64,000 bases of DNA from Nitrosomonas cryotolerans ATCC 49181 (GTDB lineage Bacteria > Pseudomonadota > Gammaproteobacteria > Burkholderiales > Nitrosomonadaceae): assembly GCF_900143275.1 (NCBI RefSeq), contig NZ_FSRO01000001.1:2250116-2314115 (forward strand), in the 5' to 3' direction. Below the pieces are notes generated by a model. The model was given only the letters and a program-made list of their open reading frames with translations, was not told the origin of the DNA and searched no databases. Shown here one piece after another: positions 11,375 through 31,740 of this stretch. Every line of letters starts with the position of its first letter. Within the stretch, counting starts at the first letter, position 1. A program made the translations under genes and the position numbers.

Positions 11375-11653
11375 ATGCAAACACCATTTAAGAAAATAGT
11401 CACGATTACAACTACCATCGTGCTGACACTGGCTTACGGCAGTGCAAGCGCAGCCGATAACGCGGTCATCTTTGACGCTGCCACAACCAATAACAGCACC
11501 GGTAACGCCGCCAATATCAACTCCAGCGGGGCAGACAAGATTGTATCGATCTATCAGACAGGTAGCGACGACAGAACCGGAACCACAGAAAAGAATCAGG
11601 TGGTTGAGGAAGCAGACACCACATTGACTTTAAAAAGGAAGTTAATGTCATGA
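11375..11653 (+). CDS. Small exported protein of unknown function, coupled to the dihaem lipoprotein gene
   Basis: A 92-residue product with a clear signal peptide ending near ASA at residue 27. The mature part is rich in Asn, Thr, Ser and Asp (NNSTGNAANINSSG, IYQTGSDDRTG). The Q-x-G spacing faintly recalls curlin-type repeats, but only one unit is present. GGAGAG precedes the start. Its stop overlaps the start of the dihaem gene as ATGA, so the two are probably translationally coupled. No family is recognised. Confidence 0.6.
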   Translation: MQTPFKKIVTITTTIVLTLAYGSASAADNAVIFDAATTNNSTGNAANINSSGADKIVSIYQTGSDDRTGTTEKNQVVEEADTTLTLKRKLMS

Positions 11654-13518: not shown

Positions 13519-13532
13519 ATTTTGCTGTTGAG

Positions 13533-13568
13533 AACAAATGGTGATGACTAAAGTCACCATTTGTTTTT
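13533..13568 (+). terminator. Rho-independent terminator between the two dihaem genes
   Basis: A perfect 12-bp stem, AACAAATGGTGA with TCACCATTTGTT, a 9-base loop and a following T-run. It lies just after the stop of the first dihaem gene and 32 bp before the start of the second, so the second gene may have its own promoter or depend on read-through. Confidence 0.85.
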
Positions 13569-13599
13569 CCTGAATAAAAACAAATCGTAGGGTTTAATC

Positions 13600-16134: not shown

Positions 16135-18249
16135 ATGGAAGAACATACCCACCCTGTTCTATCAAAGTCAGCAAACGATCTAAAGCTTGAGAATAAGGCA
16201 CATAGTATTGAAATGAACGTAAGAAGATACAGTGTAAAAGAATATGTAGTATTGACAATAATCGCTGCGACTACGTCTCCTTTGCTTGCTACTGAGTTAC
16301 CTCCAACAACAACACCTCGTTCAACTATTGAAGAGGGCAACACGGCTACCAGCGAATCCGTTATAAAGAGCAAGCAGTCACCAACAACCCCGTCGATTCA
16401 CCTCGCTCCGATGGAGATAACAGCCAATCCCATTATCGATCAAATTCAGGTTGATCCGTTCTCAGCTACATCAGCAGTGGTCAAGGCAGATCAACTACGC
16501 GATCAGAATGCATTTGATCTGGCTACCGCACTGCGGCGCACGCCTGGTGTGCAGATATCCCGTTACAACCCAGTTGGCGGCTTTGGCGGTGATCAAGGTG
16601 GGGCTGTTTATATTCGTGGCATGGGCGCAGGTCGGCCAGGCAGCGAAATTATGACTTATGTAGATGGTATTCCCATCTTTATGGGTGTGTGGAATCACCC
16701 CTTACTGGATTTACTGCCTGTTAACGGCATGCAATCCATCACTGTATACAAAAGCCCACAGCCTCATATTAATGGCAATAATTTTGCTTCAATTAATCTC
16801 GAAACAAAACAGGCTTATCAAGAGGGCACACTGATCAATGCCAGAGTCTCAGGTGGCTATTTCGGAACCTTTATCGAACAAGCAGACTTGGTCGGCCGCA
16901 GCGGAAATATATCGTATATGCTGGCACAGGGTCATGCGCAATCGAATGGACATCGGCGGAATGCGGATGGTGAATTGAATAATGTAATGGGGCGTGTCAG
17001 CATGCAATTAGACCCGCATTGGTCAATTGGCACCGGTTTTATTTTTGTCGACAACAAAGCTCTTGATCCAGGTGATAATCGACTACCCAGCGTAGCGGTT
17101 GCCCCGAAATATGAAACACAATCCGGTATGTCATACGCTTTTGTATCACATAACCACGACCGGTGGCAGGGTGATCTACGTGTCTACCATAATCGAGGTG
17201 AAGGTAACTGGTTAAGACAAGGCGGCATCGAAGGCAATCACTTCAACAATTTTCAAACAACCGGCGTGCGCTGGAAAGAAGTATTCTCGCCCTGGCAAGG
17301 TGGCACCATTACTGCCGGACTGGACAGTGATCGGGTTTCCGGTGATTCGCGATTTAACCGTATCGCGCCGGCTCCGCAGGATAAGGTTAATCTGCCTACT
17401 TTTCGGGTAACGTCACCCTATTTTTCTTTGAGCCAGCAGTACGCCGTCCATGAGGATTGGCTGCTGGTGCCTTCGTTCGGTGTCCGCGTCTACAATCACA
17501 GTGAGTTCGCAACCAAGACTGCACCCCATTTTGGCCTGTCATTGATTTCCGAACACATCACACTATTCAGTAATGTATCGCGCGGCATTCACTATCCAGG
17601 ACTCGAAGCACCGCTGCTTGCACATTTAATGCCGCCACTGAGGGATACGTGGAAACAGCTTTCCGCAGAAGAGCTCAGTCATGCCGAAGTCGGCATAAAG
17701 CTGACGCCTTTTAATACAACGCAAATTGATGTGAGTCTATTTATTGATCATGTGAAAAATCGATATATTTTTGGTTTTCCTCCGAATATTCCACCGCCAC
17801 CTCAATTCTTAAATCTGGGCGCTTATACCGTTCGGGGTGCCGAGTTCTCACTCAGACAGGATATTACCCGGAACTGGTCCCTGTTTGGCAGCCTGACCTT
17901 GCTTGACCCCAGTATCGATAATTTACCTTATGCGCCAAGTAGAGCGGTTACAGCGGGGATTAATGGCCAGGTTGGCCCCCTTCGCTTGACAGTAGACACA
18001 CAATATCAATCCAGCGTATTGGCATTGAGTCGCGCACGCAATCCGGCCTTTTCCAATACAGAAAAGGTAGATTCATTCGTCATCATGAATGCACGGGTTG
18101 CTTACCCATTAGCCATGCTAGGCAAACAGGGAGAAGTCTTTGTGGCCGCGGAAAACCTGCTTAACGAGCACTATGCTTATCGTTCCGGATATCCCATGCC
18201 CGGACGCTGGGGTCAAATCGGCTTCTCTGTCAGTTTGAATCTTATATAA
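16135..18249 (+). CDS. TonB-dependent outer-membrane receptor
   Basis: A 704-residue receptor for energised uptake of a metal complex or other large solute. After a signal region, a TonB-box-like PMEITANPI is followed by a plug domain (LRRTPGVQI, VYIRGMG, IMTYVDGIP, VYKSP) and a beta-barrel ending in GRWGQIGFSVSLNL. Met27 at 16213 gives a better signal peptide (MNVRRYSVKEYVVLTIIAA) and may be the true start. It heads a gene set with MoeZ, JAMM and ThiS-like proteins, so its ligand is probably a metal-thiocarboxylate complex (inference). It could also serve another siderophore. Confidence 0.88.
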   Translation: MEEHTHPVLSKSANDLKLENKAHSIEMNVRRYSVKEYVVLTIIAATTSPLLATELPPTTTPRSTIEEGNTATSESVIKSKQSPTTPSIHLAPMEITANPIIDQIQVDPFSATSAVVKADQLRDQNAFDLATALRRTPGVQISRYNPVGGFGGDQGGAVYIRGMGAGRPGSEIMTYVDGIPIFMGVWNHPLLDLLPVNGMQSITVYKSPQPHINGNNFASINLETKQAYQEGTLINARVSGGYFGTFIEQADLVGRSGNISYMLAQGHAQSNGHRRNADGELNNVMGRVSMQLDPHWSIGTGFIFVDNKALDPGDNRLPSVAVAPKYETQSGMSYAFVSHNHDRWQGDLRVYHNRGEGNWLRQGGIEGNHFNNFQTTGVRWKEVFSPWQGGTITAGLDSDRVSGDSRFNRIAPAPQDKVNLPTFRVTSPYFSLSQQYAVHEDWLLVPSFGVRVYNHSEFATKTAPHFGLSLISEHITLFSNVSRGIHYPGLEAPLLAHLMPPLRDTWKQLSAEELSHAEVGIKLTPFNTTQIDVSLFIDHVKNRYIFGFPPNIPPPPQFLNLGAYTVRGAEFSLRQDITRNWSLFGSLTLLDPSIDNLPYAPSRAVTAGINGQVGPLRLTVDTQYQSSVLALSRARNPAFSNTEKVDSFVIMNARVAYPLAMLGKQGEVFVAAENLLNEHYAYRSGYPMPGRWGQIGFSVSLNLI

Positions 18250-18406
18250 AAAGCGGAATTGATACGGACATGATGCCTGATTCTCTTCGCATGTATTTCG
18301 ATACACATAGGATTTATCCTGTTTGTTTTGTCAGTCCCAGCATCACTCGCAAGTCAAGTTGCCAATTGAAGTGAAGTAATCATTTAATTTAAAAATGGAG
18401 TATCTG

Positions 18407-19573
18407 ATGCAATTACCCCCATTAGTCGATCCAGCAGCAGATTTAAGTAAAAATGAAATTGTACGGTACAGTCGCCATTTATTGATTCCTGAAGTCGGTC
18501 TGGAAGGACAGAAGCGTCTTAAGAACAGTAAGGTTCTAGTCATCGGTGCCGGTGGCCTGGGCTCGCCAGCCCTCTTATATCTGGCTGCGGCCGGTGTCGG
18601 TACGCTGGGAATTATTGATTTCGATAGGGTCGATGAATCAAATCTGCAAAGACAGATTATTCACGGGCAATCCGATATTGGCAGATTAAAGTCAGAAAGT
18701 GCACGGGATACGATTAAGGCATTAAATCCCTATGTTCTCGTACAACTACACAGTGAGCGACTTGAAGCGGCCAATGCCGCAGCCATCATATCGGGCTATG
18801 ACCTGATAGTGGATGGAACAGATAATTTTGCAACACGTTATCTTGTTAATGATGCCTGTGTATTAGCAGGAAAACCTTATGTCTGGGGTTCTATTTTCCG
18901 GTTCGAGGGACAGGTTTCTGTCTTCTGGGAGAATGCGCCAGGTGGCGTGGGATTGAATTATCGCGATTTATATCCTGAGCCCCCTCCAGCAGGAATGGCC
19001 CCTTCTTGTGCGGAAGGCGGTGTACTGGGCATTCTTTGCGCTTCAATCGGAGCCATGATGGCAACAGAAGCTATCAAATTAATCACCGGATTAGGCGAAA
19101 CACTGCTGGGTCGACTGGCTGTCTATGACGCGCTTGATATGAACTACCGATTTATTCCGCTTCGTCCGGCACCGGTGAGAACGCCTATCACTCAATTAAT
19201 TGACTATCAAGCATTCTGTGGATTACAGCCATCACCACCCCACTCTGATGTGCCGGTGATTAGTGCGCGAGAACTTAAGACTATGCAAGAAAGCGGCACG
19301 AATCTACAGCTTATTGATGTACGCGGAATCGAAGAATGGAACATCGTCCATATCGAAGGCGCCACCCATATTCCAAAGCATAAAATAATGTCTGAAGCAA
19401 TATTAGCGAATATGAATCAGGAAGGTCTCATTGTCCTCCAATGCAAAATGGGGGCACGCTCTCGAGATGTTCTGATCGAAATGCAAAAACAAGGCTTTAC
19501 GAATGTCAAAAGCCTGGAAGGCGGAATTCTGGCATGGATAAAAGACGTTGATCCCTCACTGCCCAGCTACTGA
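18407..19573 (+). CDS. moeZ: MoeZ-like sulfur-carrier adenylyltransferase with rhodanese domain
   Basis: A 388-residue E1-like enzyme. The N-terminal ThiF/MoeB domain has YSRHLLIPEVGLEGQKRL, the nucleotide motif VIGAGGLGSPALLYLAAAG, and TDNFATRYLVND. A C-terminal rhodanese domain carries the active Cys in LQCKMGARSRD. Such proteins adenylate the C-terminal Gly of a ThiS/MoaD-like carrier and transfer sulfur to form a thiocarboxylate. The start at 18407 gives the family opening LPPLVDPAADLS and has GGAG upstream. Equivalents are QbsC and the MoeZ-like Pdt protein. Here it neighbours a JAMM protease and a carrier protein. Confidence 0.93.
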   Translation: MQLPPLVDPAADLSKNEIVRYSRHLLIPEVGLEGQKRLKNSKVLVIGAGGLGSPALLYLAAAGVGTLGIIDFDRVDESNLQRQIIHGQSDIGRLKSESARDTIKALNPYVLVQLHSERLEAANAAAIISGYDLIVDGTDNFATRYLVNDACVLAGKPYVWGSIFRFEGQVSVFWENAPGGVGLNYRDLYPEPPPAGMAPSCAEGGVLGILCASIGAMMATEAIKLITGLGETLLGRLAVYDALDMNYRFIPLRPAPVRTPITQLIDYQAFCGLQPSPPHSDVPVISARELKTMQESGTNLQLIDVRGIEEWNIVHIEGATHIPKHKIMSEAILANMNQEGLIVLQCKMGARSRDVLIEMQKQGFTNVKSLEGGILAWIKDVDPSLPSY

Positions 19574-19735
19574 ACGAATAATGCGGCCGATTGATTCTTA
19601 TAACCCGCATTTATGTTTCATCAGGTTCTTGAATTTTTTAAAACGACACTTTTGAATGCGCCCTTTTAAACCAATAGCAATGGTTTGTTTGAGTAAGAAA
19701 ATCTTTAGCTATTTAACTTCCAGGAGATCAGAAAT

Positions 19736-20176
19736 ATGCTGACAATACATACGAAACTAGTGAATGCAATGATCGCTCAGGCACGGCAGGATCATCCCAT
19801 CGAAACCTGCGGGATTATTGCCGGTCCCGTCAAATCCAATCTTCCACTACGACTGATTCCCATGCGCAATATTGCACAATCGGAAGATTTCTTTGAATTC
19901 GATTCGCAGCAGCAGCTACAAGTCTGGAGAGAAATGGAACAGCGCGATGAAGAGCCAATCGTTATCTACCATTCCCATACGCATTCACAGGCATACCCCA
20001 GTCATACCGATGTTCAATATGCCACTGAGCCTCAAGCCCACTACATCATTATTTCGACTGATCAAACTTATGAAGACGAAATACGCAGTTTTCGTATTGT
20101 AGAGAAAATGGTGATTGAAGAACGGGTCAGAATAGTCAAAACATATCAGTCTGATCTGGAATTGATGTTGGCCTGA
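19736..20176 (+). CDS. JAMM/M67 metalloprotease that trims the sulfur carrier
   Basis: A 146-residue JAB1/MPN+ metalloprotease. The full JAMM signature is present: Glu23, then H79-x-H81-x7-S89-x2-D92. Relatives (Mec+, QbsD) cut extra residues from the C-terminus of a small sulfur carrier so that Gly-Gly becomes terminal, or release product from it. It lies between the MoeZ-like gene and the carrier gene. In this locus the carrier already ends in Gly-Gly, so a role in release or regulation is also possible. Confidence 0.9.
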   Translation: MLTIHTKLVNAMIAQARQDHPIETCGIIAGPVKSNLPLRLIPMRNIAQSEDFFEFDSQQQLQVWREMEQRDEEPIVIYHSHTHSQAYPSHTDVQYATEPQAHYIIISTDQTYEDEIRSFRIVEKMVIEERVRIVKTYQSDLELMLA

Positions 20177-20268
20177 TGCTTACGACAGACTAAACAGGCC
20201 ATTCCACACCACTCTTTTTGTTTTATTAAAACGCTACATTACGCCTATTTTTTGAAAAAGGAGCAAGC

Positions 20269-20541
20269 ATGCCAATCACCGTCAGTATTCCAACTATTTT
20301 AAGACCCTTAACGAATAACCAAAAGAGGGTTGAAACGCATGGCATCAATGTGCTGGATGCGATCAATCAGATGGAACAAGCATATCCTGGTATTAAAGAA
20401 AAATTGATCTCCAAGGAACAAGCTCACCGTTTTATCAATATATATATTAATGATAACGATATTCGCTTTCATGATGGCCTTTCAACAAGCCTTCAGGACG
20501 GTGATTTATTAACCATTTTACCTGCCGTTGCTGGAGGATAG
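20269..20541 (+). CDS. ThiS/MoaD/CysO-like sulfur-carrier protein
   Basis: A 90-residue ubiquitin-like carrier ending in AVAGG, the di-glycine tail that is adenylated and thiocarboxylated by the MoeZ-like partner. FINIYINDNDIRF and LQDGDLLTILP are typical of the MoaD/CysO fold. AAAGGAG precedes the start. It follows the JAMM gene and precedes the CoA-transferase and ligase genes. The gene order fits sulfur delivery to an activated carboxylic acid, rather than molybdopterin or thiamine synthesis. Confidence 0.92.
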   Translation: MPITVSIPTILRPLTNNQKRVETHGINVLDAINQMEQAYPGIKEKLISKEQAHRFINIYINDNDIRFHDGLSTSLQDGDLLTILPAVAGG

Positions 20542-20565
20542 CCCCGACTCAATCTTTTTTTATAT

Positions 20566-22476
20566 ATGAAAAATATGAATATCCATCAACCATTGGCTGG
20601 ATGCACGATCACTGGTTCTCTGAGAAATTCCATTCCGGATTTCTCAGCAGTCGCCTCTTCACTACGCTACCAATCCAGGGCATTGGGTGCGATGATCCAG
20701 TCAACTGAAGATAACGATGATTCCGCTACTGCATCCTTGTCCTTTGAATTTAAAACGCCCCATACCAAACCCGTTATCTGCAAGATAACCAAATGGGATA
20801 AATCTGCCAAGCAGACGGCCGTGACTGAAAACATTATTCAGGCCGCTTGTGGATTGATGTCAGTACATGGACGCGTTAGCGGGAAACCTCAGTCGCTCGG
20901 ATTAGATTATGTGTCGACTTTAACTGCAACGCTTGCTTTGCAAGGGGGTGCCGCGACCGCGTTAGGACAACTGCGAGGCCTTTCAGCAACCAGCAACCAT
21001 GTTTCAATGGCCGCCGCCGCTCTATTAAGTATGGGGCAATATATCGCCGGCGCAACCGCAACAGAATCACCAGAAACTTTGTTTCCGGGCAGCATATCAC
21101 ATCCAGCCGCGCCGCCTTTTATTTCATCCGATGGCATTATTTTTGAACTCGAAACGTTAAATGTCGAACCCTGGCAACAGTTCTGGGCCCAGATTGGCAT
21201 CCACCCAACGCTGGCCGGCAATGGGTGGACCGCTTTCCTGTTGCGTTATGCCAAAGCCATCGCGCCTATTCCCGATGCACTCATCAGTGCACTTTCAAAA
21301 CATACTTTTCGTCAGATTTCAGAAATAGCCATCAATACAGGGATGTCCATTTGTTCCATACGCACTATTGATGAAAGAATCCTGGACAAACACTTCGCAC
21401 AGGAATGGCGGCAAGGTCCCTGGGCATTTCAAGCTGGCCCTGGCCTTAGTAGTCCGGCTTTCCCCAAACAAGGCAGGCATACTCTGCCACTGAGCGGCCT
21501 TACCGTCATTGAGTCTTGTCGACGCATTCAAGGACCGCTAGCCGGACATTTACTTACATTTCTGGGTGCTAGGGTAATCAGGATAGAGCCGCCTGGCGGA
21601 GATCCTCTACGTGGAATGCCGCCCATGGCAGACGGCTGTTCTGCGCGCTTTGATGCACTCAATCAAGGCAAAATTATTCGAGAGATCGATATCAAATCTT
21701 CGGCGGGTAAAGCCGAGATAAAAAATATAGTTCGAACAGCAGATGTCTTCTTACATAATTGGGCACCCGGCAAAGCAGCCCAACTCGGTCTTGACTACAG
21801 CGATCTTACCGATTTGAATCCGGCCTTGGTCTACGGCTATGCTGCTGGCTGGTCAACCCATGAAAAAACGCCTGCCGCCCTGCATGCAACACCGGGGACA
21901 GATTTTATGGCGCAGGCTTATTCCGGAGTTGCAAAAAAAATTGCCCATTCATCTGGCACCAATGGCGGTTCGTTATTTACAGTACTGGATATATTAGGCG
22001 GCGTGGTCGCAGCACAAGGAATCACAATCGCATTACTCAGTCGCCACCTTAACAATATGGGTGTAAGGGTGACTTCATCACTCATGAGTAGTGCAACGTT
22101 ATTATGTAACGATGATTTTCAGGACCCAAAACAATTACCTGATACACGTTCAAGCTCGAAGCCTGTCATTAATAACATTTATCCTACCCGGCACGGAAAA
22201 ATTGCCATTGAGTGTCGTGATTATCCCACAACGACACGATTAATCCAGGCACTCGATATTGCAATCGATACTGAAGAAATTGATTTTCAACAATCCCTGA
22301 CAAAATACCTTTTTTCTAAAACAGCGGATGAATGGGTCACAATCTTCGAACAAGCCGGCATACCCGCTGCTGTTGTCATTGAAGACCTGACAGAACTGCA
22401 AACCCAAGCTCGACTGAAATCACATTTCAATCCGGGTTCTTATACCCGGGTTAAATCTCCCTGGAGTTTTAAATGA
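20566..22476 (+). CDS. CaiB/BaiF-type (family III) CoA-transferase-like protein, double domain
   Basis: A 636-residue protein with two family III CoA-transferase-like halves. The C-terminal half is canonical: LSGLTVIESCRRIQGPLAG, GARVIRIEPPGGDPLRG, and VLDILGGVVAAQGI with the likely catalytic Asp. The N-terminal half, about 280 residues, is divergent (TENIIQAACGLMSVHGR) and may be structural. Its stop overlaps the start of the AMP-ligase gene by ATGA, so the two are coupled. It probably handles a CoA ester or carrier intermediate of the locus product; a catalytic role is inferred. Confidence 0.85.
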   Translation: MKNMNIHQPLAGCTITGSLRNSIPDFSAVASSLRYQSRALGAMIQSTEDNDDSATASLSFEFKTPHTKPVICKITKWDKSAKQTAVTENIIQAACGLMSVHGRVSGKPQSLGLDYVSTLTATLALQGGAATALGQLRGLSATSNHVSMAAAALLSMGQYIAGATATESPETLFPGSISHPAAPPFISSDGIIFELETLNVEPWQQFWAQIGIHPTLAGNGWTAFLLRYAKAIAPIPDALISALSKHTFRQISEIAINTGMSICSIRTIDERILDKHFAQEWRQGPWAFQAGPGLSSPAFPKQGRHTLPLSGLTVIESCRRIQGPLAGHLLTFLGARVIRIEPPGGDPLRGMPPMADGCSARFDALNQGKIIREIDIKSSAGKAEIKNIVRTADVFLHNWAPGKAAQLGLDYSDLTDLNPALVYGYAAGWSTHEKTPAALHATPGTDFMAQAYSGVAKKIAHSSGTNGGSLFTVLDILGGVVAAQGITIALLSRHLNNMGVRVTSSLMSSATLLCNDDFQDPKQLPDTRSSSKPVINNIYPTRHGKIAIECRDYPTTTRLIQALDIAIDTEEIDFQQSLTKYLFSKTADEWVTIFEQAGIPAAVVIEDLTELQTQARLKSHFNPGSYTRVKSPWSFK

Positions 22477-24113
22477 ATCATGCAGGCATTATCGATTTAG
22501 TCCCGCCTGAAATCCGAAATCAGTGGATTCAAAATGGCATCTATCCGAATAAATCTGTTTATACGCTATTCCACGAGCATGTGCAGAAAACACCGGACAA
22601 GCCAGCCGTGATCGCTCTGGATGAAACAATGACCTATGCGGATTTATTCGATAAAGTGCAGCGCCTGGCGGCCAGCTTCAGCGCATTAGGCGTTGTCCCA
22701 GGTGATGTGATTGCATATCAACTCCATAATAGCTGGAGGAGCTGTGCTATTGATCTTGCGACTGCTGCACTGGGCGCTATTGTGGCTCCTTTTCCGCCCG
22801 GACGTGGACGACTGGATATTCAATCCTTGCTAAGAAAATGTGACGCGCGTGTCATCATTGTGGAACAGGAATCGATGGGCATTGATCAGTGCGAGCTCAT
22901 CGAATCCATAAGGCCCACTCTGCTGTCACTTCGTATATTGATTGTGAACGGGACAGCACGAGATAACTGGCACACACTGGATAATTTATCCCAAGCCCGG
23001 CCAATTGAACCTGGCCAGTTAATGACAATTTGTCCCAACGCACCCGTTCGTTTCCTCATTTCGTCGGGAACAGAATCTGATCCAAAATGGGTTGCCTATT
23101 CTCACAATGCACTGATAGGTGGACGAGGACGTTTTCTACAACACATACATCCAGATGGCCACACCTTTAAAGGACTTTATCTGATGCCACTTGGCACAGC
23201 CTTTGGTTCAACGGCAACATTCGGTGTTTTATCCTGGCTGGGTGGATCAGTTCTCATTTTACGACAATTCGATGTTACAGCAGCCATTCAGGCTATTAAC
23301 GAACACCAACCGAATTATATTTTTGGTGTCCCTACCATGTTCCAGCGCATTGCCGCTGACCCGGCTTTATCGCAGATTGACACCAGCAGTCTGATCGCAA
23401 TCATCAACGGAGGAGCCAAAATTGATGTCGCGTCCATACAACGATGCACCCACGCATTTCGCTGCGGTTTTATCAGCTTATACGGTTCCGCAGACGGTGT
23501 GAATTGCCATACTTCACTCGATGACAGTCCAGAGACCATTTTACATACAGCCGGACGGCCTAACCCGGATATTTGCAGCATTAAAATTGTTGATGACCGA
23601 AAGCAGGAAATAACACCGGGTCAAATCGGTGAAATCGCCGCAAGAGGTCCCATGAGTCCTATGCAATATGTTAATGCACCCGATCTGGACGAACTGTACC
23701 GGGATCAGAATGGCTGGGTCTACACTGGAGATCTGGGATACATCGATAATGATGGCTATCTAATACTAACCGGGCGCAAGAAAGAAATCATTATTCGCGG
23801 TGGTGTCAACATTAGCCCCGCACAAATAGAAAGTATTGCAGTCTCGCATCCGGCTGTCGTCAGCGCCGCCTGCATACCGATTGCCGACCCCGATCTAGGG
23901 CATCGGATTTGTCTGTGTCTGGTTCTACGGGAGGGTGTTGAACATCCATCATTATCTCAAATGACCCGCTACTTGCATGAACAAGGCTTGGAAATCAACA
24001 AACTGCCCGAATATCTACGCCATTTCCGGCAATTACCACTGAGTCCAGCAGGAAAAATAGACAAAAAAAAGCTCGCAGCCGAATTAGCCATTCCCATGCA
24101 CATTAGTAATTAA
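22473..24113 (+). CDS. AMP-forming acyl ligase (ANL family) of the locus
   Basis: A 546-residue adenylating enzyme that would activate a carboxylic acid. FLISSGTESDPKWVAYSHNA is a degenerate P-loop. YGSADGVN, GWVYTGDLGYIDNDGYLILTG and RKKEIIIRGGVNISPAQIE follow, and a C-terminal Lys lies in LSPAGKIDKKKL. The start overlaps the CoA-transferase gene. Equivalent ligases in pdt and qbs loci activate the ring acid before thiocarboxylate formation. The substrate cannot be read from the sequence alone. Confidence 0.88.
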   Translation: MNHAGIIDLVPPEIRNQWIQNGIYPNKSVYTLFHEHVQKTPDKPAVIALDETMTYADLFDKVQRLAASFSALGVVPGDVIAYQLHNSWRSCAIDLATAALGAIVAPFPPGRGRLDIQSLLRKCDARVIIVEQESMGIDQCELIESIRPTLLSLRILIVNGTARDNWHTLDNLSQARPIEPGQLMTICPNAPVRFLISSGTESDPKWVAYSHNALIGGRGRFLQHIHPDGHTFKGLYLMPLGTAFGSTATFGVLSWLGGSVLILRQFDVTAAIQAINEHQPNYIFGVPTMFQRIAADPALSQIDTSSLIAIINGGAKIDVASIQRCTHAFRCGFISLYGSADGVNCHTSLDDSPETILHTAGRPNPDICSIKIVDDRKQEITPGQIGEIAARGPMSPMQYVNAPDLDELYRDQNGWVYTGDLGYIDNDGYLILTGRKKEIIIRGGVNISPAQIESIAVSHPAVVSAACIPIADPDLGHRICLCLVLREGVEHPSLSQMTRYLHEQGLEINKLPEYLRHFRQLPLSPAGKIDKKKLAAELAIPMHISN

Positions 24114-24134
24114 TCCGAGACCCAGCTTTTCCTT

Positions 24135-25337
24135 ATGTTAACAATCAATAGAAGATCAACACACACCATTCTGGCCCAATCGCTTGCAAACGAGGTTAGA
24201 AGATTTGTTGATGAGCTGATTATCCCAAACGAGCCACAATTAGCGTGTAAGGAGAATCAATCAGCCCAATTACAATCCGAACTGGCTGAAAAGGCACGCT
24301 CGGCAGGACTATGGGGCTTATTTTACCCTGCCTCTTATGGTGGAAAAATAACCGCTCTGGAGGATTATCTATTAGTTGCTGAGCAAGAGGCGCGCACCGA
24401 ATTTTCATCAGATATCTTCGGCAGTCATTCAGCGCTGGATGCACATATGCTGCTTAAATTTGGTAATCATGAGATTCGCAAGCAATTTCTAGAGCCCATG
24501 ATTTCCGGAAAAACCATTCCCAGCTATGGCATGACCGAACCGGAACACAGTGGCTCAATTCCTGATTTAATCACCACCTCAGCTCATTTATCCAATGGGA
24601 ACTGGCATATCAACGGAAGAAAATGGTTCGTCTCGAATGCACACAAAGCAACCTTTATTACTGTTTTAGCCCGCACTGGGGAAAAAGATGCTCTCCTCAG
24701 CAGCGCACTCTCAATGATCATTGTTCCAGCCAATACGACAGGGCTCAAAGTGGAGCGACCTATCCCGATCGCAGGCAGCTCTCTTGATCAGAGTGAAATT
24801 TCATTCAATGCCGTGCAAGTACCTGAACATTACCTGTTAGGCGGCTGTGGGAAAGGTCTCGAGTTAATGAATCAACGGCTCGGAATCGGTCGATTATTGC
24901 GCGCCATGAGCTGGGTGGGATTAGCCCAAAGATGTCTGGATTTAATGGGTGCACGCATTAATTCAGCACATGGAAGATCAGCACGATTGCCTGAAAAGCA
25001 ACTGGTACGCCAGCACATTGGCAATACCTATCAAGCAATCGCAAGCGCGCGCGCACTCATCCGTATTGCTGCACGCGGCGTCGATACCCAGTGTTCTAGC
25101 CATATTGAAATCAATACTGCCAAGATGGCGGCATCTCGGGCTTTATGTATCGCCTCTGACTCAGCCATACAACTTTATGGTGCCGAAGGCATCAGTGATC
25201 TCACTCCCCTTTCCGGTATCAGTAAAATTGCGCGAGCATCACGCATCCTCGACGGCACGGAAGATTCATTGATCAGTTCGATAGGTCGCCAATTGATCCA
25301 TTTTTATCAACAAAAAAGCACCTACTCCTTTGATTAA
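24135..25337 (+). CDS. Acyl-CoA dehydrogenase family protein
   Basis: A 400-residue flavoprotein of the acyl-CoA dehydrogenase fold. GLWGLFYPASYGG, GMTEPEHSGS, WHINGRKWFVSNAHKATF and IQLYGAEGISDLTPL are the usual motifs, with a C-terminal RILDGTEDSL in place of the catalytic Glu segment. It starts 21 bp after the AMP-ligase stop, so it is in the same transcription unit. In this context it may oxidise or dehydrogenate the CoA- or carrier-bound acid. A general fatty-acid role is less likely because fadE lies elsewhere. Confidence 0.88.
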   Translation: MLTINRRSTHTILAQSLANEVRRFVDELIIPNEPQLACKENQSAQLQSELAEKARSAGLWGLFYPASYGGKITALEDYLLVAEQEARTEFSSDIFGSHSALDAHMLLKFGNHEIRKQFLEPMISGKTIPSYGMTEPEHSGSIPDLITTSAHLSNGNWHINGRKWFVSNAHKATFITVLARTGEKDALLSSALSMIIVPANTTGLKVERPIPIAGSSLDQSEISFNAVQVPEHYLLGGCGKGLELMNQRLGIGRLLRAMSWVGLAQRCLDLMGARINSAHGRSARLPEKQLVRQHIGNTYQAIASARALIRIAARGVDTQCSSHIEINTAKMAASRALCIASDSAIQLYGAEGISDLTPLSGISKIARASRILDGTEDSLISSIGRQLIHFYQQKSTYSFD

Positions 25338-25429
25338 TCAAATTCTTATCCATTCGGCTTTATGCGTGTGTTTTATTTCTATCCATTACAGTCCATACGA
25401 CGATTTCTTATCAATCGGGTGTCTTAATT

Positions 25430-26656
25430 ATGTCGACATTAACTAGTCCCGCTTACCATACGGCTATGGTTAACAATCTGCTCCGAATTGTTCTGGTATT
25501 TGCAATGACCTTACCCATGCTGATTTTATATGCAACCAGCACACTTGGACCCGTTCTTAGTCTGGATTTAAAATTTGATATTACATGGTTGGGTTATCTC
25601 ATCATGAGTGCTTTCGGTCTGGCCGCCATTTTGTCGCTGTGGGCCGGTGCTATCGTGAACACCATTGGAACACGATACGCACTGCTCATCATTTTCTTTG
25701 CTATCACCCTTGCTTTTACACTCATTGCAAATACTCAGGATTTTTATGGTTTGATGATTGCTGCTGCCATTTGCGGCATTGCACAAGCCCTTGCAAATCC
25801 GGTTACAAACTTATTAATCACACAGCAAATTCCAGCAGAAAAAAGAGCCTTTATGGTGGGGCTCAAACAATCCGGCGTTCAGCTGGCAGCACTTTTCGCA
25901 GGTCTAGTGCTCCCCGGTATCGCCTTTCAATATGGCTGGCGCGTGGCATTCGGCGTAATTGTTCCTGTCGCCCTGTTATTTTGCATCGCAACCCTTTATG
26001 TTACGCCGAAACAACCAACCAAAAGCAGCCAGGCACCCACCCGGTCTTTTCCTAATTCACTGACACAGTGGCTGATGAGTATTCAATTTTGTGTGGGCCT
26101 ATCACTTTCTGCATTTGTCACTTTTCTACCCACTTTTGCAATGCAGCAAGGCATGTCACTCTCTCTGGCCGACAGCTTAATTGGCATCTTTGGCATCACG
26201 GGCATGCTCTCCAGAATCGTATTAACCCCACTGGGATCAAAACTTGCAGATGAATCCCGGCTTTTATTTATTCTTTCGGCTATTGCCGCTGGCGCAATCG
26301 CCTTCACAATGTTTGCAGATCCAGAGCATCATTGGTGTCTATGGGTCGGTGCCATCGGTGTTGGACTGAGCGCAGTGGGCACCAATGCAATCGCAATGAG
26401 CATGCTCATACGTGATTCAGCTTTCGGTCCTGTAACCACCACATCCGGCTTTGTTTCAGTCTCTTTTTTTGCCGGTTTCGCGTTAGGTCCGCCGCTCTAT
26501 GCTTCCCTTGCTAATTATTCTGGCAGTTTTCTACTCGGCTGGAGCACCTTAATAGGCATATTGATGACCGCCTGTATCTTGACATGGGCTTTGGCATCAG
26601 CGCGCCGCCAACAAGAGACGGCGCAATTATCAGCAAGAATAAGCCACTCTAGTTAA
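25430..26656 (+). CDS. MFS transporter, probable exporter or permease of the locus product
   Basis: A 408-residue protein with 12 predicted membrane helices in two halves joined by a loop around KQPTKSSQAPTRS. KQSGVQLAALFAG and the conserved TP-containing second half (IVLTPLGSKLADE) place it in the major facilitator superfamily. It ends the run of genes that starts with the TonB receptor. Export of the free thiocarboxylate or inner-membrane uptake of its complex are both plausible. Confidence 0.85.
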   Translation: MSTLTSPAYHTAMVNNLLRIVLVFAMTLPMLILYATSTLGPVLSLDLKFDITWLGYLIMSAFGLAAILSLWAGAIVNTIGTRYALLIIFFAITLAFTLIANTQDFYGLMIAAAICGIAQALANPVTNLLITQQIPAEKRAFMVGLKQSGVQLAALFAGLVLPGIAFQYGWRVAFGVIVPVALLFCIATLYVTPKQPTKSSQAPTRSFPNSLTQWLMSIQFCVGLSLSAFVTFLPTFAMQQGMSLSLADSLIGIFGITGMLSRIVLTPLGSKLADESRLLFILSAIAAGAIAFTMFADPEHHWCLWVGAIGVGLSAVGTNAIAMSMLIRDSAFGPVTTTSGFVSVSFFAGFALGPPLYASLANYSGSFLLGWSTLIGILMTACILTWALASARRQQETAQLSARISHSS

Positions 26657-26672
26657 CCTATCACGATGCTGA

Positions 26673-27452
26673 CTATCGAAAAAATTCGATCACTTCATGA
26701 GCGAACAAATCAGGTGCTGTCCTCATCGCACCATGTTGTTGTCCTGGGAGAATTTTGATTTGGCTACCACAAAGACTCCGACACAATACTTCAGCAGCCT
26801 GATAGCGACGCGCGGGACTATCCTCTCCCAACAGGAGCATGATCGGAATTCGAAGGGAATCAAATCGATGTGGATTAAAATCATATTTATCAACGGATTG
26901 CAATTCTCTCAAAATAGTATGCGCAGTTGCAACACGCCCTGGCCAGTTCGATCCGGCTTGCATGGCCGCAATCTCATGAGGCGCTGCTTTGAGAATGTCA
27001 CGAAAGAAAAGAAGCACTGCTTCTTCCCAATTTCCAGAGATCAGCAGGTTCTGCAAGGTCGCTTCACGCATTTCCGACCAACCGCTGCCGGCCAGAGAAA
27101 TAGGAGCCTCATAAAGCATGAGTTTGCCGATGTTTGAAGTTAGCAATATTGCCTCCAGGGCACAGAGCCCTCCAAAGGAATGTCCCAGAAGATGTACGCG
27201 ACCGCCAATCACATCAATGATAGTCGCGATATCTTCACACTCACGCTCAAACGCATAGCTGCCGGAATCACCGCTATAGCCCCGTCCCCTGCGATCCAGG
27301 GTCCATACACTAAAATGGTGTTCCAGCGCAGCCAGCACCGATGTCCAGACAAGATGATCACTGGTCGTACCGTGCACAAGTAATAAGGGATCTCCCGCCC
27401 CACGCTGCCAGCTGGCAATCGGCGTGCCATCCCTTGATGTTATCAACTCCAT
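26673..27452 (-). CDS. Alpha/beta-hydrolase
   Basis: A 259-residue hydrolase. The oxyanion region LLVHGTTSDHLVW, nucleophile elbow GHSFGG with the Ser near residue 93, an acidic residue near LLLGEDSP, and the catalytic His in GQQHGAM are all visible. There is no signal peptide, so it acts in the cytoplasm. It converges on the MFS gene with a 16-bp gap and is divergent from the porin gene. It might act as a thioesterase or release enzyme for the metallophore-like locus, but this rests only on position. Confidence 0.85.
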   Translation of the reverse strand: MELITSRDGTPIASWQRGAGDPLLLVHGTTSDHLVWTSVLAALEHHFSVWTLDRRGRGYSGDSGSYAFERECEDIATIIDVIGGRVHLLGHSFGGLCALEAILLTSNIGKLMLYEAPISLAGSGWSEMREATLQNLLISGNWEEAVLLFFRDILKAAPHEIAAMQAGSNWPGRVATAHTILRELQSVDKYDFNPHRFDSLRIPIMLLLGEDSPARRYQAAEVLCRSLCGSQIKILPGQQHGAMRTAPDLFAHEVIEFFR

Positions 27453-27592: not shown

Positions 27593-29131
27593 ATGACTTT
27601 TTTAACCATACCCATCCCCAGAGGCATCCTTTTATTTGTAATCCGAAACCTGAAATGCTTAATCATTTTGAGTGTTATAAGTACTCTCCTACTCATCAGT
27701 GGCGCGCTCAGCGCAAAGGAAGCCAAAGATGTGGGTCAGATTAATCAATATCTGCGAATTAACGGCGAATTAATGGGTAGTTACGAGCGATGGCATTTTT
27801 TCCGGCCTGAACCTGCCATCAATAATAACCATACCTATGATTTATCAGTATTACGTGCCAGGCTCGGTGCACAGCTGACAACTCCCTATGTCGATGGTTA
27901 CATACAGGGACAATATATCGGCCTCTTTGGACTCCCGGATAATTCGGTTGCTGTTCCCGGCGGACCTTTGGGTTTGGGAGGCGGTTATTTTCTGGCTAAT
28001 CAGTCTACTAATTCCGCCAACATTTTTCTAAAACAAGGCTATCTTGATTTCAAATTCAACTCATTAGGTATACCCGGGCTGTCTTTAAAAGCAGGCCGTT
28101 TCGAATTCATGGATGGAATGGAATATCGTACCGGCATTACCAAACTCGACACATTAAAGAAAAGACGCATTTCACAACGCCTCATCGGCGGATTTAATGT
28201 CATTTATATCGGGCGAAGTTTTGATGGTTTTTCCGCTGTCTACGACCGACCAGAGCTTAATTTGACTATCAGTGGCATGCGCCCAACACAAGGAGGTTTT
28301 ACAGTTCAGGGGCAAAAACAAATCAGCGATATCAATCTACTTTATACCGCGCTCACCAGTAAGCAGAATACCTGGCTACCTGGAACAGAGAGCCGTCTTT
28401 TCTATATACATTACAATGACAAACGCGATACACAGATTATCGATAACCGCCCACCGGATGCAAGACCACGGCTAAACAACCAGAATCTGGCTATTCATAC
28501 ACTGGGCGCCCATTTCTTATCCTTGCACCCATTGAAATCAGGCAGTATCGATAGTTTATTGTGGGGAGCCTATCAGTTCGGTGATTGGACTGATCAGAAG
28601 CACCAGGCCTGGGCGATCTCAGCTGAATTAGGTTATCAATGGACTCAGATACGTTTCAAACCATGGTTACGCGCTATTTATTATCAAAGTTCAGGCGACA
28701 ACAACGCCCAGGACAATAAACATCAAACCTTTCTCACACTGCTTCCGAGCGGACGGCTCTATTCCAAATTTCCATTTTACAATCAAATGAATATTCGGGA
28801 TTCTTTCATAGAAATGATTGTATCGCCTACCCCAAAGACTCAGATAAACATAAATTTTCATCACCTGTCGCTCACTAACTCAAATGACCTTGCTTACCGA
28901 GGCCTGGGCGCAACCACAAACTCAGGCGCATTTGGCTATTCAGGCAAATCTTCTGGTGGGAGTAAAAATGTGGGTCAGTTAATTGATATCAGTTTCACGC
29001 ATGCTGTCAGCAAACATTTCTCATGGCGACTTTACTATGGTCATGCTTTCGCTGGCAGTGTGATTAAAAATAATTTCCAGGGGAATAAGCACGCGCATTC
29101 ATTCTGGGCAGATTTTAATCTGGTTTTCTGA
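27593..29131 (+). CDS. Outer-membrane porin with alginate-export-like barrel
   Basis: A 512-residue protein with an extended signal region ending near GALSA. It is followed by many alternating beta-strand segments (LRINGELMGSYERW, LGAQLTTPYVDGYIQGQYIG, LSLKAGRFEFMDG, LPGTESRLFYIHY), resembling the alginate-export family of outer-membrane channels. It precedes a GH88-like hydrolase gene by 14 bp. The pair suggests passage and processing of a small glycoside or acidic compound, but the substrate is open. Confidence 0.8.
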   Translation: MTFLTIPIPRGILLFVIRNLKCLIILSVISTLLLISGALSAKEAKDVGQINQYLRINGELMGSYERWHFFRPEPAINNNHTYDLSVLRARLGAQLTTPYVDGYIQGQYIGLFGLPDNSVAVPGGPLGLGGGYFLANQSTNSANIFLKQGYLDFKFNSLGIPGLSLKAGRFEFMDGMEYRTGITKLDTLKKRRISQRLIGGFNVIYIGRSFDGFSAVYDRPELNLTISGMRPTQGGFTVQGQKQISDINLLYTALTSKQNTWLPGTESRLFYIHYNDKRDTQIIDNRPPDARPRLNNQNLAIHTLGAHFLSLHPLKSGSIDSLLWGAYQFGDWTDQKHQAWAISAELGYQWTQIRFKPWLRAIYYQSSGDNNAQDNKHQTFLTLLPSGRLYSKFPFYNQMNIRDSFIEMIVSPTPKTQININFHHLSLTNSNDLAYRGLGATTNSGAFGYSGKSSGGSKNVGQLIDISFTHAVSKHFSWRLYYGHAFAGSVIKNNFQGNKHAHSFWADFNLVF

Positions 29132-29145
29132 AAAGGATATTTCTT

Positions 29146-30279
29146 ATGCATACGATTCATAAAACTAATCAGCAGCAATCAAGCCATGCAGAAATAGAAT
29201 CAGCGATTGAAGTCATGATTTGCCATATGATACATATTGACAGCCTCTGTACCGATGGTTTTCCACTTTACTCACCGAGCACAAGTAATCAGTGGACCAT
29301 TTCACCCGGTGGTTCCTGGGTTGGCGGATTCTGGAGTGCATGGTGGTGGCTGCGGGCACACATCACAAAGTCAGTATCTGACCAGTGTAAGGCATCGGAA
29401 CTCTGTCAACGCTTATTACCCAAAATAGATACGGATTCTGTTAATCGTAGCCTTGTTTTCTGGTATGGCGCTTCGCTTGGAAATATCTGGTTTCAGGATG
29501 TACCTGCACGCAGGCTTGCACAGCAATCGATGATCGCACTCGCAGCTGCCTATGACCCGAAAACGCATTGCATCCCTCTCGGTATAGATATGGGAGGTGG
29601 AGAAAAAGGAAAGCAACTGATCTCGATAGACAGCCTTGCCGCGTTAATACAACTTTTCAGGCAAGACAAATCCAGGGAATATGAAGATATCCTGCGATCT
29701 CACACCGATACCTTAATAGCGGCCTGCTGCGATACCCAGGGTGCATTCCACGCAACCGCTCATTTTAACCACGGAAGCTTTCAACCGATTGGTCAAGCGG
29801 GTGCATGGTCTCGCGGTCAAGCCTGGGGCATGTTGGGACTGAGTCGAGCAGCCATACAATGGGGAGAACCTTACCTTACATATGCTCAGTCTGCTTGTGA
29901 ATACTGGAAAAATTCACGCTCCGAACTCCTGCCACTGAACAGACTGGATAATCCCAATGGACTCTACGATCCCTCCGCCTCTGTCATTGCGTCTCTTGCC
30001 ATGCTTTCCCTGGCCAATCTCGTACCGAATGGCCAGCAATGGCATAGATACGCGCATCAACAGATTACCGCGATCATACGTAGTCAATACTTTACGGGTA
30101 TCCGATCCAGCAATCATTCAAAAAAACATAAAGCTAACATGGATTCCGGAATATTCTGGGGAAGCTGCTACAAAACTCATCCAGATAAGGAAGCATTGGT
30201 TGAAACAACTTGGGGTAGCTTTCTTCTGATGGCAGCACTTTGCATTTTGGTTCATCGCATTGAACCTGATCAGATATAA
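29146..30279 (+). CDS. Glycoside hydrolase family 88/105-like protein
   Basis: A 377-residue alpha/alpha-toroid protein resembling unsaturated glucuronyl hydrolases. GGSWVGGFWSAWWWLRAH, GAWSRGQAWGMLGLSRAA, LYDPSASVIASLAML and VETTWGSFLLMAAL match the GH88 pattern. No signal peptide is obvious, so it may be cytoplasmic. It follows the porin gene by 14 bp. Polysaccharide-lyase products are an odd food for an autotroph, so action on a glycosylated metabolite of the neighbouring cluster should be considered (inference). Confidence 0.75.
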   Translation: MHTIHKTNQQQSSHAEIESAIEVMICHMIHIDSLCTDGFPLYSPSTSNQWTISPGGSWVGGFWSAWWWLRAHITKSVSDQCKASELCQRLLPKIDTDSVNRSLVFWYGASLGNIWFQDVPARRLAQQSMIALAAAYDPKTHCIPLGIDMGGGEKGKQLISIDSLAALIQLFRQDKSREYEDILRSHTDTLIAACCDTQGAFHATAHFNHGSFQPIGQAGAWSRGQAWGMLGLSRAAIQWGEPYLTYAQSACEYWKNSRSELLPLNRLDNPNGLYDPSASVIASLAMLSLANLVPNGQQWHRYAHQQITAIIRSQYFTGIRSSNHSKKHKANMDSGIFWGSCYKTHPDKEALVETTWGSFLLMAALCILVHRIEPDQI

Positions 30280-30423: not shown

Positions 30424-31740
30424 ATGATCAAACATATTTTTATAAAAATTTTAATACTGCTCAAACAAATTAGATCTGGTTGGATACTGATTTTGCTCGT
30501 CTTTTTTCCCATCTTTGCCGTGGCGCAGGACATAAAATCCATACCCATTCTGCTGCATGCTGCCCGTATTTTTGATGGAGAGCAAATCAAAACGAACACC
30601 TCAGTACTGATAGAAAATGGACAGATTTCACGCATAGGCACACGCGAGTCATTTAAAACCACGGCTGCCGTAAAAATTATCGATCTGGGTGAAGCAACCA
30701 TACTGCCCGGCTTGATCGAACTACATGCACACCTTTCATTTCAAAATGTGCCAGCAGACACTGTTTTAAAACACGGCATCACAACCATTCGAGATTTAGG
30801 TGGTCCCGTACATCAGCCATATGGCGGTAATGGTAGCCTGCGCGTTCTCACCTCCGGACCGATTATCACGGCAGCCCATGGCTACCCCATTCCCATCCTT
30901 GGTGCTAGCGATATTGCCATCGCTGTTTCAACTGAAGAAGAAGCGCGACGTACTGTTCGCAACCTCATTAATCAGGGTGCCGTCATCATCAAAATCGCCT
31001 TGGAACCCGGGGGCGAGATTGGTGCACCCTGGTCTGCTCATCATGATCATCCACATCATGGGCATCAACATCCTGCGCACTCGGATAAGAAACAAATTCA
31101 TTCACATCAAGCACTCACTGATCATCCTGCTTCCAACGTCAAGCAGGAATGGCCGCTATTATCAGAAGAAATAGTCAGAGCGATTGTGAGTGAAGCGCAT
31201 CAGCATAACCGGAAAGTAACCGCACATATTGCAGAAGTCAGGGGCGCACAGATTGCAATTAACGCAGGGGTTGATGAGTGGGCACACATGCCTTGTAACC
31301 AGATCCCCAGGCAATTATTAGAAAAAGCCGTATCACAGCATGTAAAAATCGTTACTACACTGGATACGTTATCCAAATGCACGGGTATCGAACATAATAC
31401 CCGCACCTGGTCAGCTTTGGGTGGGGAATTGCTATACGGTGCTGAAATTGCACATCCTGACATCCCGCGAGGAATCGACGCTCAGGAACTGATCTATATG
31501 ATGAAAATGGCAGGAATGGAGCTGGCAGCAGTTTTGCGTGCGGCCACATCTAAAGCCGGTCAACAACTGGATATTCCGTTACTGGGCACCTTACAACCCG
31601 GCGCACCGGCCGATATCATTGCCGTGCAGGGCGACCTTCACCACCAATTAAAAAACCTGGAGTATCCCGACCTGGTTATTTCGGGCGGTAAAATCATTGT
31701 CAATAATTTCGAAACAGCCCAAAAAGAGATGATTCAGTAA
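30424..31740 (+). CDS. Exported amidohydrolase with a histidine-rich loop
   Basis: A 438-residue metal-dependent hydrolase of the imidazolonepropionase-like group. A signal or anchor sequence (LVFFPIFAVAQ) precedes the fold. Metal-site motifs are LHAHLS, the carboxylated-Lys region VIIKIALE, TAHIAE and DEWAHMP. A loop in mid-sequence (HHDHPHHGHQHP, HSDKKQIHSHQ) holds about ten histidines and would bind Cu, Zn or Ni. It may be cleaved or bind metal in the periplasm. Its reaction is unknown; amide or lactam hydrolysis is family-typical. Confidence 0.82.
   Translation: MIKHIFIKILILLKQIRSGWILILLVFFPIFAVAQDIKSIPILLHAARIFDGEQIKTNTSVLIENGQISRIGTRESFKTTAAVKIIDLGEATILPGLIELHAHLSFQNVPADTVLKHGITTIRDLGGPVHQPYGGNGSLRVLTSGPIITAAHGYPIPILGASDIAIAVSTEEEARRTVRNLINQGAVIIKIALEPGGEIGAPWSAHHDHPHHGHQHPAHSDKKQIHSHQALTDHPASNVKQEWPLLSEEIVRAIVSEAHQHNRKVTAHIAEVRGAQIAINAGVDEWAHMPCNQIPRQLLEKAVSQHVKIVTTLDTLSKCTGIEHNTRTWSALGGELLYGAEIAHPDIPRGIDAQELIYMMKMAGMELAAVLRAATSKAGQQLDIPLLGTLQPGAPADIIAVQGDLHHQLKNLEYPDLVISGGKIIVNNFETAQKEMIQ

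Follow-up and report, generated by a model that had tools for sequence, protein, structure and literature searches.

Compounds of the pyridine-dithiocarboxylate (PDTC) type are ligands for copper, iron and zinc and also dechlorinate carbon tetrachloride. For the ptm cluster, the sections of Dong et al. 2018 (PMC6006322) on the PtmA3/PtmU4 cassette describe thioacid chemistry with a sulfur carrier, for which a MoeZ homologue and a JAMM protease are required, and show that such a cassette also serves antibiotics, here thioplatensimycin. In the neighbourhood survey of Iyer et al. 2006 (PMC1779556), as far as its tabulated entries go, Nitrosomonas and Nitrosospira are already found among pdt-type neighbourhoods, with the five-gene core of row 4a present in N. 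europaea and N. multiformis. The Nitrosomonas cluster that we describe is conserved and pdt-related, is without PdtL/PdtM and has extra genes.

We analyzed a stretch of 64,000 nucleotides of Nitrosomonas cryotolerans ATCC 49181 (contig NZ_FSRO01000001.1), hereafter the window, in which the original prediction had placed an eight-gene, one-strand cluster at positions 16135-26656. All eight genes are intact, lie on the plus strand and are supported by Pfam domains, bearing out this claim: a TonB-dependent receptor (16135..18249; Plug), a MoeZ/PdtF-like adenylyltransferase-rhodanese (18395..19573; ThiF and Rhodanese), a JAMM/JAB peptidase resembling PdtG/QbsD (19736..20176; Prok-JAB), a ThiS-like sulfur carrier resembling PdtH/QbsE with a free Gly-Gly end (20269..20541; ThiS), a two-domain type III CoA-transferase (CoAT) resembling the PtmU4/PdtI/QbsK thioacid synthases (20566..22476; CoA_transf_3), an aryl-acid AMP/CoA ligase resembling PtmA3/PdtJ (22473..24113; AMP-binding) whose gene overlaps that of CoAT by 4 bp, an acyl-CoA dehydrogenase-like flavoprotein (ACAD, PdtO by gene order; 24135..25337) and an MFS transporter (PdtN by gene order; 25430..26656). 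The predicted end at 26656 did not hold; because an AlgE-type outer-membrane barrel (Alginate_exp; 27593..29131, plus strand) and X377, a GH88-like protein (29146..30279, plus strand), co-distribute with CoAT, the unit goes on past this point, and both are members of the cluster. Two further genes with Pfam matches are less certain but probably also belong to it, which takes the unit to about 31740: an alpha/beta hydrolase (ABH; 26673..27452, minus strand), a Nitrosomonadaceae accessory present at 25 of the 34 other cluster loci (three of the nine misses being contig or stretch ends), and an amidohydrolase with a signal-like N-terminus (Amidohydro_1; 30424..31740, plus strand), kept next to X377 wherever the compared stretch extends far enough. 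The row 4a entries of PMC1779556 cited above name no ACAD, MFS, X377, barrel or amidohydrolase. We read the locus, with a probability of about 0.7, as a pdt-type locus that starts from a small carboxylic acid, probably a heteroaromatic one, and makes from it a thiocarboxylic acid, most likely a metal chelator; the basis of this reading is gene families, active-site motifs, gene order, co-distribution, joint decay and kinship to pdt.

The sulfur-transfer proteins retain their signatures. MoeZ of the window carries both active-site motifs, SCAEGG and CKMGARS, which 32 of the 33 other loci also have (L051, the one miss, is a script read-out failure), and is 63-70% identical to the Pseudomonas pdt-type copies. 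The JAMM peptidase has the complete E...HSHx7SxxD motif, as do all 33 other cluster loci having the gene, and is predicted to expose the Gly-Gly of the carrier; AVAGG is present in 33/33 other cluster carriers, 22 of them free, 10 capped and one fused to CoAT. CoAT, at 636 aa and with two CoA_transf_3 stretches, is therefore of the two-domain type, and the Asp of its GTDF motif (Asp446 in the window), which would correspond to D430 of PtmU4, is kept in 34/34 Nitrosomonadaceae copies and in 13/14 others, the exception being the stop-broken L110. The pairing of a ligase with a two-domain type III CoA-transferase that draws on a sulfur carrier is as in the ptmA3/ptmU4 cassette, a likeness at the level of protein families, whereas here the Gly-Gly carrier, the MoeZ homologue and the JAMM peptidase are all three within the cluster. 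The closest solved structures to the ligase are DHB- and salicylate-AMP ligases, and its stretches near what we take to be the substrate-pocket positions are pdt-like rather than qbs-like. Remnants, fragments or overlapping copies (L068, L070-L075, L112 and L113) were left out of the pocket comparison and of the trees below.

To compare the locus with pdt, we used 12 Pseudomonadaceae CoAT loci gathered via a PrrF RNA search, those named pdt-type being so called by gene order, not by product. Their layout agrees with the pdt genes published for strain F113. The order MoeZ-JAMM-carrier-CoAT-ligase-ACAD-MFS-X377 recurred in 9 of the 12, with homologues of PdtF, G, H, I and J completing the sulfur-transfer core and counterparts of PdtO and PdtN, by gene order, plus X377 in the same order. 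Identity to pdt-type loci was 61-65% for the ligase and 44-51% for CoAT; the MFS protein matched at 43-53% in 11/11 Pseudomonas loci and ACAD at 46-53% in ten, with 28% in the eleventh. In the CoAT tree the 33 Nitrosomonadaceae rows form one clade (100/100), and together with 11 pdt-type Pseudomonadaceae rows a 44-row group (99/99), within which Pseudomonadaceae are not a single supported clade: two groups of them meet Nitrosomonadaceae at an open fork. A quick ligase tree placed the Pseudomonadaceae rows in one group (support 92); roots are midpoints, for drawing only. These families, motifs, order and tree, together with the decay of remnants, lend good support, as judged from sequence, to the predicted synthesis of a thiocarboxylate of the pdt/qbs kind, and the product likely chelates metal. 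Set against pdt, the Nitrosomonas locus has additional ABH, barrel and amidohydrolase genes and another receptor. Neither PdtL nor PdtM (PigD/PigE-like) matched anything in the window or in 43 Nitrosomonadaceae stretches; the PdtM search gave matches in 125/125 genomes, and those listed all fell within residues 360-819 of 844, i.e. the class III aminotransferase part only, so that full PdtM is read as absent. Among the Nitrosomonadaceae loci PdtE had no match and PdtK a single weak one (L069, E 5e-4), and the pdt methyltransferase and regulator were not found at the Nitrosomonas locus. Given that these genes were not found, the product need not be PDTC.

The original prediction had seen no ring-forming enzyme and considered that the product may be new. 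PdtL/PdtM were indeed not found, but ACAD and X377, both common to pdt-type loci, are candidates for ring work. The best solved match of ACAD is ACAD11, and its NCBIfam matches include the prolyl-carrier dehydrogenases PigA/RedW, all far under cut-off. The window X377 has no Pfam match and shares remote homology and fold with the GH88 unsaturated glucuronyl hydrolase (UGL; 1VD5), as indicated by a profile match to 2ahf/1vd5 and by Foldseek, where a low-confidence model (mean pLDDT 51.8, 3-row alignment) matched 1vd5 with E 1.6e-10; since this structure is weak, the GH88 assignment comes mainly from the profile. Of Asp88 and Asp149, which we take to be the catalytic residues of UGL, X377 keeps the latter as Asp162, with an equivalent in 53/53 aligned rows, whereas the place of Asp88 is held by Ser102 in one alignment and by Asn100 in the other.

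We infer the following route, including its substrate, transport roles and metal binding. The ligase would activate the acid through AMP to CoA, and ACAD, perhaps with X377, would dehydrogenate or reshape the ring while it is a CoA ester. MoeZ would adenylate the carrier and its rhodanese domain would give sulfur, yielding the Gly-Gly thiocarboxylate; JAMM would uncap capped or fused carriers, the window carrier being already free; and the two-domain CoA-transferase would swap CoA for carrier sulfur. The MFS protein would then move the product across the inner membrane, and the outer membrane would be served by the AlgE-type barrel and, in N. cryotolerans, also by the TonB receptor. Our best guess for the substrate, at somewhat less than even odds, is dihydrodipicolinate or its lysine-pathway precursor, giving PDTC or a close relative. 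Dipicolinate synthase DpaA was not found in the genome. A less probable version is a thiocarboxylate other than PDTC made by a short route, in which X377 and ACAD would reshape a cyclic precursor as the CoA ester (a cyclic imino acid, for instance, or the DapA product 4-hydroxytetrahydrodipicolinate), the GH88 fold would have a non-glycosidase role and the product would usually cross the outer membrane through the barrel rather than a TonB receptor. If the pdt-type reading is true, some ammonia oxidizers produce their own sulfur-based metal chelator despite the reported lack of siderophores in their best-known member and, given the metal binding and dechlorination by PDTC-like compounds, nitrifier metal supply and pollutant chemistry could therefore depend on this locus. 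The comparison also names conserved, uncharacterized parts of pdt-type loci (ACAD, X377 and MFS), and a smaller version of the cluster without PdtL/PdtM makes the origin of the PDTC ring directly testable.

The product might instead be a thiocarboxylate that is no metallophore, an antibiotic-like or signalling compound comparable to thioplatensimycin, which we regard as unlikely even though it fares best among the rivals. An orthologue of the TonB receptor adjoins 16 of 35 clusters, those of the window and of all 15 cluster-bearing genus g3 genomes (67-74% identity), and was found beside none of the other 19, all genus g1 (in L070 the contig starts inside CoAT). The window receptor is not a PdtK orthologue, since the PdtK-like receptor of L109 matched nothing in the window. 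Upstream of the cluster no Fur box was convincing, the best places matching 11/19 before the receptor and 12/19 before MoeZ, a weak negative because a single consensus was used. In the 64-kb scan 26 places matched at least 13 of 19, and two of the eight gaps reached 13, that between MoeZ and JAMM (19691) and one where the barrel gene ends (29130), neither of which precedes the cluster's first gene; promoter-like sites numbered 26 versus 32.1 (sd 5.5) in shuffles. The 19 clusters and the Fur result speak for this alternative and weaken the predicted recapture of the product. MFS and barrel would suit simple export, and the ptm cassette, in the sections of PMC6006322 cited above, serves an antibiotic. 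Against this, the closest loci by sequence and order are pdt-type, with a PdtK-like receptor in L107, L109 and L110 and a PdtE-like permease in several, and a receptor adjoins the window copy and 15 others. Two observations concern individual members of the family. L069, a genus g1 cluster locus, has a different receptor-like ORF. Counting, if its operon is complete, against a siderophore reading, N. europaea, which the table of PMC1779556 lists with such an operon, is given as a non-siderophore-maker, CAS assay included, in the relevant section of PMC3050691.

CoAT is carried by 35 of 125 Nitrosomonadaceae genomes and missing from 90, and in a 369-genome class sample only its own genome matched. 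X377 was found in 35/35 CoAT genomes versus 4/90 others, and the barrel in 33/35 versus 1/90, that single copy having seven stops (Fisher tests, p 7e-27 and 1e-26, which ignore relatedness and are descriptive); X377 relatives on plasmids were examined in 5 of 152 matching records. Across the family, the gene order is kept in 34 further loci, with exceptions at contig ends, one insertion and a variable receptor, and this recurrence indicates that the cluster is not due to chance. The four X377 genomes lacking CoAT hold a deletion remnant in which CoAT, ligase and MoeZ are absent at the locus, all four carriers are without Gly-Gly and all four JAMM motifs are broken; they share an identical Ser-to-Arg change in JAMM and therefore probably reflect one inherited event, not four. 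The refuting condition of the original prediction therefore came out in its favour: the four relatives in which JAMM and carrier persist with neither CoAT nor ligase at the locus are those in which both have decayed. The idea that these sulfur-carrier genes serve the synthesis of cysteine, Moco or thiamine and lie by chance beside unrelated catabolic genes gains something from the NCBIfam scores, in which MoeZ falls just under the MoeZ cut-off (624 versus 647 bits) and the carrier resembles MoaD and SAMP proteins. It is nonetheless very improbable, with a unit inherited together with CoAT and ligase and decaying without them, CoAT missing from 90 of 125 relatives, and two other ThiF-family genes and another ThiS-family gene elsewhere in the genome, so that the cluster copies are not its only ones.

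A thioquinolobactin-type cluster, which would share MoeZ, JAMM, carrier, CoAT and ligase with the window, can be rejected, as the two qbs rows (L080 and L111) fall with Streptomyces outside the 44-row group of the CoAT tree, neither locus has a match to the ACAD or X377 that the Nitrosomonas locus has in addition, and tryptophan dioxygenase was not found in the N. cryotolerans genome, whereas ORFs of L080 read as kynurenine-pathway enzymes. The ligase of L080 is also longer, with a methyltransferase part.

The cluster forms a unit longer than the eight genes of the original prediction (TonB receptor, MoeZ, JAMM, carrier, CoA-transferase, ligase, acyl-CoA dehydrogenase and MFS permease; 16135-26656), all of which sequence and family profiles showed to be intact, on the plus strand and of the families named there. 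Exploring Nitrosomonadaceae genomes, we found the order MoeZ-JAMM-carrier-CoAT-ligase-ACAD-MFS, in which CoAT is the CoA-transferase and ACAD the acyl-CoA dehydrogenase-like protein, conserved in 34 other loci. There, MFS is usually followed by an alpha/beta hydrolase on the minus strand, an AlgE-type barrel, the GH88-like protein X377 (29146-30279 in the window) and an amidohydrolase. Exceptions to this order at L056, L070, L045 and others come from contig or stretch ends; L040 and L042 are without hydrolase and barrel, in L055, L058, L061 and L063 the barrel is present and the hydrolase was unmatched, and L042 carries two JAMM copies in tandem (L042:11436-12400). In L068 an insertion interrupts the ligase gene and the locus continues in L075; since this insertion of ~7.9 kb (L075:846-8777, genome G051) splits the gene, the pathway copy in G051 is probably dead. 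Counting across genomes, which covered CoAT, X377 and the barrel, placed CoAT in 35 of 125 family genomes, the source genome included (genus g1, 20; genus g3, 15). X377 was present in 35/35 of these versus 4/90 without CoAT, and the barrel in 33/35 versus 1/90, that single copy having seven stops. The window amidohydrolase (30424-31740) contains a His-rich insert (HHDHPHHGHQHPAH), and L053, L054, L075 and the remnant loci described below carry a longer paralogue (~510 aa) close to the cluster.

Within the window core, CoAT is of the two-domain type III kind and its gene overlaps that of the ligase by 4 bp. Given that the solved structures closest to the ligase are 2,3-dihydroxybenzoate- and salicylate-AMP ligases, its sequence fits an aryl or heteroaryl acid as substrate. 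In the window, the JAMM motif is complete and nothing follows the carrier's terminal Gly-Gly. The sequence AVAGG was found in 34/34 carriers accompanying CoAT, window included: 23 terminate there, 10 are capped by 1-11 residues and one, in L058, continues into CoAT as a single 737-aa open frame that has Gly-Gly where the two proteins meet, making this fusion a candidate natural substrate of the JAMM peptidase. QbsD, a JAMM-type protein, is stated to uncap its carrier (PMC6006322), and the capped and fused carriers fit uncapping by JAMM. The four genomes with X377 and without CoAT (remnants L071-L074) keep JAMM, carrier and X377; L071 also has an ACAD and L073 has scraps of one. MoeZ, CoAT, ligase and MFS were unmatched in these stretches of ~20 kb. 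All four remnant carriers have lost the Gly-Gly end (AG, AD, GN, GN), and all four JAMM proteins carry an identical Ser to Arg change in the motif, indicating that the remnants probably derive from one inherited event; the carrier changes probably came later. This pattern, AVAGG kept with CoAT but Gly-Gly and the JAMM motif decayed in the remnants, ties JAMM and carrier to the thioacid cassette.

CoAT was also found in 12 of 398 genomes of a Pseudomonadaceae sample. Nine of these 12 loci have the same order from MoeZ to MFS followed by X377, one of them (L110) with a stop within CoAT, and L111 is qbs-like. In two of the 12, L107 and L109, which presumably follow the strain KC lettering, the core is followed by a receptor and by PigD- and PigE-like genes; their extensions L112 and L113 hold MFS and X377 matches at 46-48% and 35%, and an ACAD match at 48% in L112 versus only 28% in L113. 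L107 PdtM scored 1411 against the NCBIfam PigE model (cut-off 850), and PdtL resembles PigD below the cut-off (621; cut-off 950). These PigD-/PigE-like genes (L107:265-5189) unexpectedly connect PDTC-type biosynthesis with that of prodigiosin. In L100 a methyltransferase gene comes first, next a gene for a PdtE-like permease and a pair of large genes, with F to J, ACAD and MFS after them. This fits pdtCKPELMFGHIJON, the gene list published for P. fluorescens F113 (PMC3570484; also PMC7415375); by gene order the large genes would be PdtL and PdtM, ACAD would be PdtO and MFS would be PdtN. A CoAT tree of 47 rows (33 Nitrosomonadaceae, 11 pdt-type, two qbs, Streptomyces) placed the Nitrosomonadaceae in a single clade (100/100) and, together with the pdt-type rows, in a 44-row group (99/99), with the qbs and Streptomyces rows branching outside it. 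No single clade was resolved for the 11 Pseudomonadaceae rows. On a Streptomyces plasmid, MFS, X377-like, ACAD, CoAT and ligase genes lie together (L081:8001-15533), the CoAT match ending at query residue 513.

Neither the window nor any of 43 Nitrosomonadaceae stretches gave a match to PdtL, PdtM, PdtE, the AraC-type regulator or the methyltransferase, and the PdtM matches listed for the 125 genomes were all confined to the aminotransferase part. The window receptor and PdtK are not orthologues; the former is common to 15/15 g3 loci, its orthologue was found beside no g1 locus except the window's, and L069 has a different receptor-like ORF. The PtmA3/PtmU4, Pdt and Qbs systems are the precedent from which we infer every reaction of the proposed pathway. 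The metal-chelator reading is weaker than the thioacid reading, given that no Fur box was convincing, that a receptor orthologue adjoins 16/35 clusters and that N. europaea is reported as CAS-negative (PMC3050691).

The core observation is not new, since Iyer et al. 2006 listed N. europaea and Nitrosospira multiformis among neighbourhoods of the pdt type, labelled 'siderophore biosynthesis', that contain homologues of PdtF-J (PMC1779556). Dong et al. 2018 demonstrated the chemistry of the thioacid cassette and its spread (PMC6006322). Searches of one open-access library, which prove little, found no paper joining Nitrosomonas with 'dithiocarboxylic acid' and, among the titles and abstracts listed, none on this locus. 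Added here are the real extent of the unit, its co-distribution, the common ACAD-MFS-X377 set, the lack of PdtL and PdtM, the carriers that are capped or fused, and the decay of carrier and JAMM together.

X377 had no Pfam match at E 5 and no NCBIfam match at E 0.1. A three-sequence X377 profile matched unsaturated glucuronyl hydrolase (UGL; 2ahf, E 2.6e-9), and the first Foldseek match of its weak predicted model (pLDDT 51.8) was 1vd5 (E 1.6e-10). Asp149, the general acid/base of UGL, aligns with X377 Asp162, kept in 53/53 rows, whereas UGL (GH88) Asp88 falls on Ser102 (1vd5 alignment) or Asn100 (2ahf alignment), Asp in neither. UGL acts by adding water to a double bond of a six-membered ring, adjacent to a carboxylate; speculatively, X377 might perform a UGL-like step on a lysine-pathway ring. 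Examining the plasmid neighbourhoods of five more distant relatives revealed CoA-transferase, acyl-CoA dehydrogenase, acyl-CoA synthetase and aldehyde dehydrogenase genes on Cupriavidus plasmids (two relatives), CoA-transferases, aldehyde dehydrogenase and ETF genes in Agrobacterium, and CoA-transferases, acyl-CoA dehydrogenase and aldehyde dehydrogenase in Rhodococcus. The common thread is CoA-ester chemistry, to which Bradyrhizobium is partly an exception, its flanks being sugar-transport, ribokinase and AraD1 genes plus CoA-transferase and aldehyde dehydrogenase.

Immediately upstream of the window receptor lies a tandem pair of RoxA-like cytochrome genes (11650-15432; Pfam RoxA-like_Cyt-c). 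Two near-identical 367-aa transposase-like genes (511-1614 and 38678-39781) stand in direct orientation with ~37 kb, including the cluster, between them.
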